Translations under genes and position numbers: made by a program
The notes under the pieces: generated by a model
What the model saw: the letters and a program-made list of their open reading frames with translations, nothing else
Told to the model about the DNA's origin: nothing
The model's database searches: none
DNA from: Chitinophaga sp. XS-30
Lineage (GTDB): Bacteria; Bacteroidota; Bacteroidia; Chitinophagales; Chitinophagaceae
Reading direction: 5' to 3'
Length of the DNA stretch: 64,000 bases
NCBI RefSeq assembly: GCF_008086345.1
Contig: NZ_CP043006.1
Coordinates: 5,516,032-5,580,031, forward strand
Shown here: piece by piece, positions 26,473 through 30,286 of the stretch
Layout of the letters: each line of letters begins with the position of its first letter
Numbering within the stretch: the stretch's first letter is position 1

Positions 26473-27660
26473 TTATTTCAGGATCTCGGTAACCTGACCA
26501 GCGCCTACGGTACGGCCACCTTCGCGGATCGCGAATTTCAGACCTTTTTCCATAGCGATCGGCTGGATCAGTTTAACGGTCAGGCCGATGTTATCACCAG
26601 GCATAACCATTTCAACGCCTGCAGGCAGTTCAACCTCACCGGTAACGTCAGTCGTACGGAAGTAGAACTGAGGACGGTATTTCTGGAAGAACGGCGTGTG
26701 ACGGCCACCTTCTTCTTTGCTCAGTACATAAACTTCACATTTGAAGTCGGTGTGCGGAGTGATGGAACCGGGCTGGCAGATAACCATACCGCGACGGATC
26801 TGGGTTTTTTCAATACCGCGGAGGAGCAGACCGGCGTTGTCACCAGCTTCACCTTCGTCCAGCAGTTTTTTGAACATTTCCACACCAGTGCAGGTAGATT
26901 TCAGTGACTCGGGGATCAGACCTACGATCTCAACGTTCTCACCTACTTTGATACGACCGCGCTCGATACGACCGGTGGCAACAGTACCACGACCGGTGAT
27001 AGAGAACACGTCTTCCACTGACATCAGGAACGGTTGGTCAACCGGACGCGGAGGCATCGGAATGTAAGTATCAACGGCTTCCATCAGTTCGTCGATCTTT
27101 GCAACCCATTTTTCGTCGCCGGCGAGAGCACCGGTAGCAGAACCCTGGATGATGGGCACATTATCACCATCGAAACCATAGGAAGACAGCAGGTCGCGGA
27201 TCTCGATCTCAACGAGTTCCAGCAGTTCCGGATCGTCTACCAGGTCTACTTTGTTCATGAATACTACGATACGGGGTACACCTACCTGGCGGGCCAGGAG
27301 GATGTGTTCCTTGGTTTGCGGCATAGGACCATCAGTAGCGGCAACCACCAGGATAGCACCGTCCATCTGCGCAGCACCAGTGATCATGTTCTTCACATAG
27401 TCAGCGTGACCAGGGCAGTCAACGTGCGCATAGTGACGTGCAGAAGTCTGGTACTCTACGTGGGCTGTATTGATAGTAATACCTCTTTCTTTTTCTTCAG
27501 GAGCCGCATCGATCTCGTCATATCCTCTTTTCTCAGCCAAGCCCTTGTTTGCCAGAATTGTCGTAATGGCAGCAGTCAAGGTAGTTTTACCGTGGTCCAC
27601 GTGACCGATGGTACCAATGTTAACGTGGGGTTTATCCCGCTTAAAGGTTTCTTTTGCCAT
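26473..27660 (-). CDS. tuf: Elongation factor Tu
   Basis: 395-residue GTPase that delivers aminoacyl-tRNA to the ribosome. GTP-binding motifs are intact: GHVDHGKT (about residues 19-26), DCPGHADY (about 81-88) and NKVD (about 136-139); domains 2 and 3 follow ([34 protein letters not shown]). Only one tuf copy is seen in the window. It is transcribed after four tRNA genes and carries an unusually structured leader of about 290 nt, including a tRNA-like element. Confidence 0.99.
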
Positions 27661-27679
27661 TGTATTTTTTTTTAAGATG

Positions 27680-27724
27680 GTTTGTAAAGATTGTATTATA
27701 GTTGTTAAAAAACGTTTTACAAAC
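27680..27724 (-). promoter_or_regulatory. Stem-loop in the tuf leader next to the start codon
   Basis: GTTTGTAAA (27724-27716) pairs perfectly with TTTACAAAC (27688-27680), enclosing a 27-nt AT-rich loop, about 20 nt before the tuf ATG. It follows the tRNA-like element directly and could affect access to the start. Confidence 0.45.
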
Positions 27725-27726
27725 TT

Positions 27727-27799
27727 GAGCCCGTCACAGGGATTGAACCCGCTCCTTTCCGCTTACTGGCGAAACGCTCATCCATTGAGCTTACCGGCT
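27727..27799 (-). pseudogene. tRNA-like element in the tuf leader (degenerate tRNA or tRNA mimic)
   Basis: A 73-nt stretch with clear tRNA parts: acceptor-like pairing AGCCGGT/ACGGGCT (six of seven pairs), a perfect D-arm GCTC-AATGGAT-GAGC, and a T-arm GCGGG-TTCAATC-CCTGT with a canonical T-loop. The anticodon arm is abnormal: pairing needs a bulge (TTTC-GC / GC-G-GAAA) and the loop lacks the invariant T33, so it should not decode. The standard order in the phylum is tRNA-Thr(GGT) followed by tuf, so this is an extra element. It may be a decayed tRNA or a structure that EF-Tu recognises. Confidence 0.5.
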
Positions 27800-27819
27800 T
27801 AGTTAAACTTCAAATTTCG

Positions 27820-27905
27820 GACACCGTACACCGCTTTACCGGTGACCTGTATCCGAAACCTTCGGGATCCGCCGGGAGAACACTTCTCCGGAAATCCCCG
27901 AGCTT
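27820..27905 (-). promoter_or_regulatory. Two strong hairpins between tRNA-Thr(GGT) and the tRNA-like element
   Basis: Hairpin 1 (minus strand): TCGGG(G)AT .. CCGGAGAA / TTCTC(C)CGG .. ATCCCGA. Hairpin 2: TTTCGGA .. CACCG / CGGTG .. TCCGAAA, with a symmetrical internal loop. They could be RNA-processing sites that separate the tRNAs from tuf mRNA or part of a leader control element. No open frame is present. Confidence 0.45.
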
Positions 27906-27951
27906 TTAAACGGGAACCGCTGCTGCAAAACCCTTTTTTAAAATCTCTTTG

Positions 27952-28023
<72 letters not shown>

Positions 28024-28037
28024 AGTGGTTCTTTTAG

Positions 28038-28110
28038 AGCGGGAGACGAGGTTCGAACCCGCGACCTACAGCTTGGAAGGCTGTCGCTCTACCAACTGAG
28101 CTACTCCCGC
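28038..28110 (-). tRNA. tRNA-Gly (anticodon TCC)
   Basis: 73 nt. Acceptor GCGGGAG/CTCCCGC, anticodon stem ACAGC/GCTGT with loop CTTCCAA (TCC), T-loop TTCGAAC. Confidence 0.97.
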
Positions 28111-28213
28111 ATATGAAAACACTGTACACTTCCTCATTCATCCCCCCCTCCTCATTTTCTTGCACAAGTTTGTTCCGCCCCTGTTGAACAAAAGCGGAAC
28201 AAAATAAGTTTTG

Positions 28214-28296
28214 TGGGCAGGACAGGATTCGAACCTGTGAAGTCGAAAGACAGCGGATTTACAGTCCGCCCCATTTGGCCGCTCTGGAACCTGCCC
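28214..28296 (-). tRNA. tRNA-Tyr (anticodon GTA)
   Basis: 83 nt with the long variable arm of class II tRNAs. Acceptor GGGCAGG/CCTGCCC, anticodon loop CTGTAAA (GTA), T-loop TTCGAAT. Confidence 0.97.
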
Positions 28297-28335
28297 AACT
28301 AAAAAAACTTTGCCCGGACCCGTCCGGAACGCCTG

Positions 28336-28409
28336 AGCCAGCAGAGGGATTCGAACCCCCGACCCACTGATTACAAATCAGTAGCTCTGGCCAACTGAGC
28401 TATGCTGGC
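28336..28409 (-). tRNA. tRNA-Thr (anticodon TGT)
   Basis: 74 nt. Acceptor GCCAGCA/TGCTGGC, anticodon stem ACTGA/TCAGT with loop TTTGTAA (TGT), T-loop TTCGAAT. First gene of the tRNA-tuf transcript. A weaker second promoter (TTG, 20 nt, TTATTTTG at 28455-28485) may lie just upstream. Confidence 0.97.
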
Positions 28410-28640: not shown

Positions 28641-28940
28641 TTAATGTAAATTCTTCTCCTTCCGGCGTTTGATCTGGGTAACAAGCGAGTCAAATGCGAG
28701 GTCTATTGACTCTTCGAAGGATTTGGATTCGTGCTTTACAAAGAAATCGTGGCGGGGAATGTGTACCTTAATCTCGGCAATCTTGTCCTTGATCTGATGG
28801 GCTAACTGATCCAGCTTCAAAAAAACTTCAACGGTAACAATACGGTCATAAAACGTGGAGAGCTTCTGGATCCTTTTGTTCACATGATCAATGAGTTTGG
28901 CGTCAGCATCAAAACGCACAGTTTGGATTTGAACATTCAT
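28641..28940 (-). CDS. hpf: Ribosome hibernation promoting factor, short form (HPF/RaiA family)
   Basis: 99-residue protein (MNVQIQTVRFDADAKLIDHVNKRI) of the beta-alpha-beta-beta-beta-alpha HPF/YfiA fold, which sits in the tRNA/mRNA channel of idle 30S subunits in stationary phase. The basic C-terminal helix (SLVTQIKRRKEKNLH) is seen; the long-form dimerisation domain is absent. The gene lies between xerC and the tRNA/tuf unit, the usual order in the phylum, with a promoter for the tRNAs immediately downstream. Confidence 0.95.
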   Translation of the reverse strand: MNVQIQTVRFDADAKLIDHVNKRIQKLSTFYDRIVTVEVFLKLDQLAHQIKDKIAEIKVHIPRHDFFVKHESKSFEESIDLAFDSLVTQIKRRKEKNLH

Positions 28941-29263: not shown

Positions 29264-30199
29264 TCACCGGGCTTTGGGGTGTGCCTGCTGATGCACCTTC
29301 TTCAGCTTCTCGATCGTGTTATGGGTATAAACCTGTGTGGCGGCGAGACTGGAATGCCCCAGCAATTCCTTGACGGCATTAAGGTCGGCCCCATTATTCA
29401 TCAGATGAGTGGCAAAGGTGTGACGGAGGATGTGGGGACTTTTCTTCCGGATCGTGGTGACCTGGCTGAGAGCGGCTTTCACCACTTTGTAAACATAGGA
29501 TTCGTCAAGGGGTTTGCCGTTTGGCTTCACCAGCAGACGTTCGAGGTCTGGACTCCCTATCTCCCGCCGTTTCCGCGCTTCATACGCGGCTATCTGCTCC
29601 AGGAGCGGGGAACTTACCGGAACAAAACGTTCCTTGTTGCCCTTGCCCAGTATTTTCAGCTGCCGGTTACCGGTATCCACCTGCTGCATTTTAAGGCCTA
29701 TCAGCTCCGCACGGCGCATACCGGTCTGATACAACAGGTCCAGGATCAGCCGGGCGGTAGCGCCCTTGAAATCATCGCTAAAAACGGGCTTGCCTGCAGC
29801 TGCATTCTCTTCCAGCTGCTGCATGCCTTTCTCTTCCACGAACACCGGCAGGCGCTTGCGGATTTTCGGGCTATTCACCTTGGCCATGGGGCTTTGCTCC
29901 AGCAGCTGCTTGCGGACGGCGTATTTGAAAAAGGATTTCAGGGTGGAGATCTTGCGGCGGATCGTGACGGCTGTAGCTGATTTCCCTCCCGGGGCAAGGC
30001 CGGTGACCAGCCAGGACTGGATATGGAAATACCGGATATCTTTCAGGGAAATATCCCCGTAAGTGTTTTCCAGATATCCGAAGAACTGCTCCAGATCTAC
30101 CCTGTAAGCCAGCACAGTGTGCGGGGAATAACGCTTCTCCAGCTCCAGGTAAGCCAGAAAAGCTTGTGCAAAGGCAGGTAGCGGCTGTTCTTCTTTCAT
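29264..30199 (-). CDS. xerC: Tyrosine recombinase XerC/XerD
   Basis: 311-residue site-specific recombinase that resolves chromosome dimers at dif. An N-terminal SAM-like core-binding domain (FLAYLELEKRYSPHTVLAYRVDLEQFF) precedes the catalytic domain, where the Arg (TGMRRAEL), the His-x-x-Arg box (SPHILRHTFATHLMNNGADLNAV) and the His/Tyr pair (LGHSSLAATQVYTH) are all visible. ATG 30199 is preferred to the GTG three codons upstream. Its place between rpsU and hpf is conserved in Bacteroidota, so it is the housekeeping copy and not a mobile-element integrase. Naming it XerC rather than XerD rests on context. Confidence 0.93.
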   Translation of the reverse strand: MKEEQPLPAFAQAFLAYLELEKRYSPHTVLAYRVDLEQFFGYLENTYGDISLKDIRYFHIQSWLVTGLAPGGKSATAVTIRRKISTLKSFFKYAVRKQLLEQSPMAKVNSPKIRKRLPVFVEEKGMQQLEENAAAGKPVFSDDFKGATARLILDLLYQTGMRRAELIGLKMQQVDTGNRQLKILGKGNKERFVPVSSPLLEQIAAYEARKRREIGSPDLERLLVKPNGKPLDESYVYKVVKAALSQVTTIRKKSPHILRHTFATHLMNNGADLNAVKELLGHSSLAATQVYTHNTIEKLKKVHQQAHPKAR

Positions 30200-30286
30200 A
30201 ACCAACACAAAAAAATTGATGACTGTAAAGTTATCGAAAACCTTACAATCATCAATCTTATGTATTAGATTTAATGCTGATCGTGA

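Follow-up and report, generated by a model that had tools for sequence, protein, structure and literature searches.

Why should a tRNA-like fold lie between an intact tRNA gene and the start codon of tuf in Chitinophaga sp. XS-30, and what could it be doing there? The stretch of 64,000 nucleotides that was analysed (the window) is part of a 6.18 Mb genome assembled as one contig, and its minus strand carries, in this order, the genes for tRNA-Thr(TGT), tRNA-Tyr, tRNA-Gly, tRNA-Thr(GGT), EF-Tu (tuf) and tRNA-Trp. The tuf gene (26473..27660, minus strand, ATG at 27660) codes for a protein of 395 amino acids and is the sole close EF-Tu match in the genome, the runner-up exhibiting 32% identity. 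The tRNA-Thr(GGT) gene (27951..28023, minus strand) is intact, is called by ARAGORN, scores 71.3 bits with the Rfam model and occurs in every one of the 79 genomes of the genus; it is the likely source of the duplicate described below. Upstream of the tRNA cluster is an ORF of 99 amino acids (28641-28940), presumably resembling a ribosome hibernation factor, followed by an ORF at 29264-30208 that presumably resembles a XerC-like recombinase.

A sequence-only reading of the window had placed two hairpins, a cloverleaf element and a 9-bp stem between tRNA-Thr(GGT) and tuf, and each of these lies exactly where it was reported. The coordinates that follow all refer to the minus strand. The two hairpins, as predicted by folding, occupy 27864..27898 and 27812..27861 in the spacer that follows the tRNA gene. 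The tRNA-like element (TLE) extends over 27728..27799, measured from its 5′ acceptor strand to the last base able to pair with that strand. The 5′ acceptor strand, AGCCGGT (27793..27799), pairs with 27728-27734 at six of seven positions, the remaining one being G.G, and 27735 is unpaired; when the TLE is numbered from the T-stem instead, 27728 becomes N73 and the acceptor stem has six positions in the window. The D-arm, GCTC-AATGGAT-GAGC, is located at 27776..27790 and includes G18 and G19, and the T-arm, GCGGG-TTCAATC-CCTGT, is located at 27736..27752. Between them, at 27757..27774, is an arm at the anticodon position that had been called broken and lacking T33. Both T33 and a 7-nt loop are indeed absent, but the arm is not broken, because a 6-bp stem with a 6-nt loop is present. 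Directly 3′ of the TLE, at a fixed position, is a conserved 9-bp inverted repeat formed by GTTTGTAAA (27716..27724) and TTTACAAAC (27680..27688), the second arm of which ends 19 nt before the tuf ATG.

The leader was compared across 79 genomes, which constitute every genome of the genus group, Chitinophaga, a genus of soil bacteria, with the window's own counted. The clade that includes the window (the window clade) comprises 17 genomes with 15 distinct elements, and the remaining, or main, clade comprises 62 genomes. The D-arm, the T-loop and an AGTTTGT flank were located in all 79. The D-stem, T-loop and AGTTTGT block, by which the TLE was parsed, were picked as landmarks after the sequences had been viewed, and therefore their invariance in 79 of 79 genomes is partly a product of that choice; an alignment made with MAFFT without landmarks returned the same columns as invariant or almost so. 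The elbow bases G18, G19, T54, T55, C56 and A58 are present in every one of the 79 TLEs, with the reservation that letters of the T-loop and D-stem also served as landmarks. On a tuf tree no change falls at G18, G19, T54, T55, C56, A58 or T59, whereas N20 changes 13 times, position 15 eight times and position 60 four times. This is the pattern of a tRNA elbow that has been kept.

The 3′ flank of the TLE is found 64-78 nt from the tuf ATG in the 79 genomes, whereas the distance from tRNA-Thr(GGT) to the TLE ranges from 21 to 309 nt, and on account of this near-fixed spacing on one side and variable spacing on the other we consider that the TLE belongs to tuf and not to the tRNA. Pairwise identity averages 0.82 in one half of the TLE and 0.78 in the other, 0.84 between the TLE and the ATG, and 0.87 over the initial 600 nt of tuf. 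It drops to 0.31 (more exactly, 0.307) in the spacer 5′ of the TLE, where the sequence of the first hairpin is unconserved across the genus; two further cluster spacers average 0.23 and 0.32, and the anticodon arm 0.38. The two upstream hairpins had also been read as part of the tuf leader. They are present, but they are not special to tuf, given that spacers between tRNA-Gly and tRNA-Thr are comparably structured and neither kind of spacer is conserved in sequence. Folding energies give a mean z of -3.18 for the spacers between tRNA-Thr and the TLE (57 of 79, those of at least 50 nt) and -2.60 for the Gly-Thr spacers (35 spacers of at least 50 nt), which are thus strongly structured though their sequence is unconserved. 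When the upstream hairpins were considered as repeats, no second copy was found in the genome. None of the 79 genomes has, between tRNA-Thr and tuf, a match to the Bacteroidota-type promoter consensus, which we take to be TTG-N17-23-TAnnTTTG.

Pairing was assessed on 72 distinct TLEs, 57 from the main clade and 15 from the window clade, that were left after identical cores had been collapsed. Standard pairs occupy 92.1% of cells among these 72 sequences, compared to 35-49% when the partner is slid by one to three columns. The covariation score is 0.189 versus 0.100 for shuffled alignments (0 of 500 shuffles as high), the pairs changed on both sides number 9 versus 7.0 (13 of 500 as high), and the further pair types number 21 versus 19.6 (130 of 500 as high), all three comparisons having been made with kinship left in. 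The D-stem is invariant in 72 of 72 distinct elements, does not vary in the genus and undergoes no change on the tuf tree. The T-stem is paired in 359 of 359 cells on the alignment, with one G.G in a single genome (L004) if its sequence is left ungapped, and four of its five pairs have changed on both sides. Its pairs change state 26 times in all on the tuf tree, pair 50:64 only once, and therefore some of these changes were inherited by groups of genomes.

The acceptor helix is less regular. As aligned it is 74.4% paired, in part because the sequences of the window clade can be fitted only when the register is moved by one base. Among the 57 distinct elements of the main clade, positions 3-7 form standard pairs in 53-57, whereas 2:71 does so in 23 and 1:72 in 34; the 15 distinct elements of the window clade, read in the shifted register only, have a standard 5:68 pair in 8 and a mismatch in 7. 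The window clade has altered both its acceptor and its T-stem sequences yet retains their pairing, subject to the register shift and to the 5:68 mismatch in 7 of 15. The four lower acceptor pairs reach a mean folding probability of 0.32 in the 17 genomes of the window clade and 0.08 in the other 62, and RNAalifold recovers the D-stem, the T-stem and six pairs of the inverted repeat, with the acceptor stem absent. The inverted repeat itself is invariant at six of nine pairs, and no compensatory change was found in it across the genus, so it may be conserved as sequence.

Folding of the TLE alone in the window is at chance level (z -0.60), and the 79 TLEs have a mean z of -1.19, with 13% below -2; the whole 297-nt leader of the window has a z of -3.52. 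On the alignments, nevertheless, the TLE in the tuf leader is real, and the evidence for this is comparative and does not come from folding.

The arm at the anticodon position contributes a different kind of evidence, since its sequence is unconstrained across the genus. It occurs as 70 distinct sequences in 79 genomes, and 69 of the 70 have a best stem of 3-9 bp by a simple search that misassigns some arms (loops up to 22 nt). Its mean folding z is -1.98 against shuffles, and its hairpin loops measure 3-18 nt in folds. The Rfam tRNA model (RF00005) gives the TLE of the window 17.8 bits, below the cut-off of 29, and ARAGORN makes no call at the TLE in this genome. Among 20 chosen loci of the genus, 16 pass the RF00005 cut-off with 33.2-48.8 bits, one scores 24.9 and three, including that of the window, have no listed match. 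No Rfam family other than tRNA, and hence no known leader or riboswitch, was found above cut-off within the 3 kb around the element in the window or in the listed matches of the 20 loci. Across the genus, ARAGORN calls a tRNA at the TLE in 32 of 79 genomes, with anticodons for Gln, Tyr, Phe, Leu, Ile, Asn, Lys, Cys and Val, a stop anticodon and several that it leaves undetermined. These calls, together with the 16 loci above the cut-off, are what could be cited for a working tRNA with an unusual anticodon, but the same calls are diverse enough to include stop and accompany a highly variable loop length. A free anticodon rules out such a tRNA in our judgement, and we accord this reading almost no credence. 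The anticodon and the C2:G71 pair are identity elements for ThrRS; because the TLE has a random anticodon and has mostly lost C2:G71, aminoacylation by ThrRS appears unlikely.

The simpler alternative that had been offered, a decayed fifth tRNA gene, does not survive the comparison either. The letters of the D- and T-arms are like those of tRNA-Thr(GGT), as a functionless relict would have them, and another genus appears to carry a true relict of the sort (L081, described below). Against this, the element has paired stems in 79 of 79 genomes, and the cluster spacers fall to 0.23-0.32 identity while the TLE halves and the following leader hold at 0.78-0.84. The earlier reading had proposed that close relatives be aligned and compensatory changes sought; the element recurs in all 79 genomes of the genus, and the T-stem carries changes on both sides in four of its five pairs. 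Presence throughout, pairing and these two-sided changes rule out a simple relict, for which we retain only a very slight probability. Considered together, the presence of the TLE, its fixed position, the changes in its T-stem, its unchanged elbow and its free anticodon arm lead us to conclude that it is not a relict in decay and that it does not serve as a tRNA in decoding.

As to its origin, the resemblance of the D- and T-arm letters to tRNA-Thr(GGT) of the same genomes makes tandem duplication the simplest source. The D-loops differ, reading AATGGAA or AGTGGCA in many TLEs versus AGGGGTA in the five tRNA-Thr genes that were compared. From sequence, the TLE looks like a duplicate of tRNA-Thr(GGT) that was kept for another job. 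The arrangement of a tRNA directly before tuf looks ancestral on the available loci: the adjoining tRNA is tRNA-Thr(GGT) in 42 of the 43 loci with tuf from other genera, and tRNA-Thr(TGT) in one, although these loci were retrieved by their match to the window region and hence do not form a random sample. ARAGORN finds a further tRNA in only one of the 43 spacers (L095), where tRNA-Thr(TGT) (1827-1900) follows tRNA-Thr(GGT) and adjoins tuf at 120 nt upstream. Another genus of the Chitinophagaceae (L081, about 1666-1748) has, by eye, an apparent decayed second copy of tRNA-Thr that has lost its D-arm, some 200 nt before tuf, and a further locus (L087) has, also by eye, a short T-arm piece between tRNA-Thr(GGT) and tuf.

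A covariance model of the TLE plus the leader (R1) was searched against 294 genomes of the family, six of them from the genus. It scores 131-171 bits in those six and at most 80.6 bits outside the genus. At 23 of the 24 loci with the best matches outside the genus the TLE is absent and tRNA-Thr(GGT) adjoins tuf; the last of them (L137) has tRNA-Gly and no tuf. Thus, neither the R1 search of the 294 family genomes nor inspection of the 43 spacers revealed a TLE outside the genus, though weak ones could be hidden among the tRNA matches. No extra copies were found in the genome, where five of the six further R1 matches coincide by coordinates with tRNAs and the sixth (L142) is called tRNA-Thr(CGT) by ARAGORN. 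A leader pattern searched in 84,980 named species genomes returned 26 matches, 23 of them labelled Chitinophaga, which do not amount to a census because the pattern by design misses most genomes of the main clade. Four of these matches were inspected, and the same tuf leader was found in [Flexibacter] sp. ATCC 35208 (L152) and in a MAG labelled Flavihumibacter (L168). One pattern match (L170) is apparently due to chance, being inside a coding gene with no tuf after it and no tRNA on the strand. Hairpin formation in other genera was also examined: the first 45 nt after a tRNA-Thr that precedes tuf have a z of -1.20 (47 loci), versus -1.18 after other tRNAs of the cluster (104 spacers), the 47 being those of 51 loci that passed a filter which itself required tRNA-Thr to adjoin tuf.

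A clue to what the element may be doing comes from a single base. When numbered from the T-stem, the base after the discriminator (27727 in the window, equivalent to C74) is C in 79 of 79 TLEs, that of L004 by alignment, and it undergoes no changes on the tuf tree, versus 6 and 5 at its two neighbours. In this genome 44 tRNA genes were examined, among them those at 27951-28409 (39 fetched and 5 in the window, from 45 tRNA-model matches with one partial match of 34 bits omitted), and every one has C at the same position; only four of them encode CCA, and positions 75 and 76 vary. All 330 tRNAs of the cluster that were tabulated for the genus likewise have C there, the table's 331 rows including one TLE labelled Tyr by ARAGORN. 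By this comparison the TLE follows the 3′-end rule of the tRNA genes of its genome, and because the two have C74 in common, RNase P and RNase Z, which process tRNA ends, are favoured over EF-Tu as its readers. The genome codes for a class A RNase P RNA (253 bits) and a homologue of RNase Z (288.3 bits, slightly below the curated 292.95).

We therefore put forward, with a probability of roughly 0.4, the reading that the TLE serves RNase P, RNase Z or both, the enzymes that trim tRNA ends, as a signal fixing where the tuf mRNA begins. According to this proposal, a tandem copy of tRNA-Thr(GGT) beside tuf would have become a permanent part of the tuf leader in an ancestor of Chitinophaga, with decoding left to the intact tRNA-Thr(GGT) upstream, an outcome that would represent subfunctionalisation of a duplicated tRNA. 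Transcription would run through the tRNA cluster into tuf. The TLE in the joint transcript would then be recognised and cut by RNase P on its 5′ side, by RNase Z on its 3′ side, or by both, splitting the tuf message from the tRNA part and giving it a defined 5′ end. This new end would consist of three nucleotides (C74-N75-A76) followed by the stem of the hairpin. The hairpin may shield the start region or present it.

By comparison of sequences, all 79 genomes keep the elbow, the T-stem, the C74 equivalent, the inverted repeat and most of the acceptor at a near-fixed distance from tuf, and the arm at the anticodon position, free in sequence but still mostly paired, also speaks for processing. 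Several observations speak against it. The acceptor stem is imperfect at 2:71 and 1:72 in the main clade and at 5:68 in the window clade, and therefore the action of RNase P or RNase Z should suffer. The invariant C is position 73, not 74, in the shifted register of the window clade. A C-C-A sequence after N73, which is an anti-determinant for RNase Z, occurs in 10 of 79 TLEs. Processing is likewise disfavoured by the low probability with which the acceptor folds, by the lack of excess structure after tRNA-Thr in other genera and by the lack of compensatory change in the inverted repeat. Moreover, C74 might instead be part of the AGTTTGT block, which is one base away.

The sequence-only reading had proposed a tRNA mimic through which EF-Tu lowers its own expression. 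The mimicry of form is supported, but autoregulation by EF-Tu is less favoured, because the 3′ end lies inside the leader, most species have an acceptor with imperfect pairing, and the invariant base is the one shared at the 3′ end by the tRNA genes of this genome. Such feedback would have free EF-Tu bind the acceptor and T-arm of the TLE in its own mRNA, held near the start codon by the hairpin, and block ribosome loading. EF-Tu reads the acceptor and T-stem of a tRNA and not its anticodon, which matches the parts of the TLE that are kept and lost, and the near-fixed distance to the tuf start agrees with the same idea. Tight binding, however, requires a free aminoacylated 3′ end, and the 3′ end of the TLE is internal, with no free NCCA end in the gene. 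Many species also have an imperfect acceptor stem. The D-arm is dispensable for EF-Tu, yet the D-stem is unchanged on the tree, and C74 without CCA is no determinant for EF-Tu. In favour of feedback, autoregulation of tufB has been reported in Salmonella (Brandis 2016). On balance, we judge EF-Tu feedback unlikely, and processing is favoured over it.

A variant of the processing signal would make the TLE a sensor of processing load, in which its cutting competes with that of tRNA precursors, so that tuf output tracks the capacity of RNase P and RNase Z or the supply of tRNA. Its determinants are identical to those of the processing model, and EF-Tu and tRNA are needed in proportion, as is generally known; we consider this variant improbable on the present sequences. 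That the duplicated tRNA serves in some such manner as a regulatory mimic, a cis-acting sensor coupling EF-Tu synthesis to tRNA supply or processing (either by the load on RNase P/RNase Z or by EF-Tu itself), is a tentative suggestion to which we attach less belief than to the processing signal.

Alternatively, the fold might not be recognised as a tRNA at all and might instead act on translation start, message stability or an RNA switch, the 3′ strand of the acceptor pairing with a downstream ‘anti-acceptor’. This pairing averages -4.92 kcal/mol, versus -4.31 kcal/mol when partners are swapped, a value as low being reached in 1 of 2000 permutations that ignore relatedness. It tracks changes in five genomes (L034, L044, L047, L053 and L068), and 27 of the 57 distinct elements of the main clade could form an anti-acceptor helix of 6 bp. 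The disregard of relatedness weakens this test, and the pairing shrinks to 4 bp in the window (27711-27735), with a mean probability of 0.00 in its clade and 0.26 in the others; the retention of the elbow bases and C74 would also go unexplained. We regard an anti-acceptor switch as only partly supported, and a purely structural leader as rather doubtful.

Some known systems exhibit aspects of the proposed signal. Like the TLE, the tRNAs that punctuate transcripts, for example in mitochondria, place between coding parts a tRNA fold that is read by end-processing enzymes and whose anticodon is irrelevant; here, by contrast, a former tRNA that would be cut in this manner appears to be kept only for such a role, before one bacterial gene. 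The tufB leader of Salmonella, where tuf is behind thrU-tyrU-glyT-thrT, has a structure tuned to the level of EF-Tu. Autoregulation there reportedly relies on competing stem-loops near the start and on Rho, and works through translation speed; that leader is not known to contain a tRNA-like element. Synthetase-bound mimics of the thrS operator type share with the TLE the mimicry of tRNA in the mRNA leader of a translation factor, but they copy the anticodon arm, which in the TLE is the free part. To our knowledge, no EF-Tu leader working by whole-tRNA mimicry has been described before, and no report of a tRNA-like element in a tuf leader was found among the matches listed in the open-access full-text literature. 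None is named in passages of PMC6134099 and PMC7247131. tRNA-Other, a pseudo-tRNA of Bacillus cereus (PMC3399842), is a non-decoding tRNA-like element within a larger RNA, as the TLE is, but this one flanks a genomic island, belongs to a larger regulatory RNA and is not described there as a tuf leader. tmRNA (PMC3929946) also keeps the upper half of a tRNA with the lower half replaced and is bound by EF-Tu; it differs from the TLE in being a separate RNA with a tag frame, and its 3′ end accepts alanine.

With these considerations in mind, we view the TLE as clearly exemplifying how a tRNA gene can be recruited into a leader, and 79 natural variants separate the parts that are kept from those that are free. 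Automatic annotation may list many TLEs as tRNAs with false anticodons, given that ARAGORN does so in 32 of 79 genomes. The finding bears, in a non-pathogen that can be cultivated, on how EF-Tu output is matched to tRNA, and on how the 5′ ends of messages located behind tRNA genes are formed in Bacteroidota.
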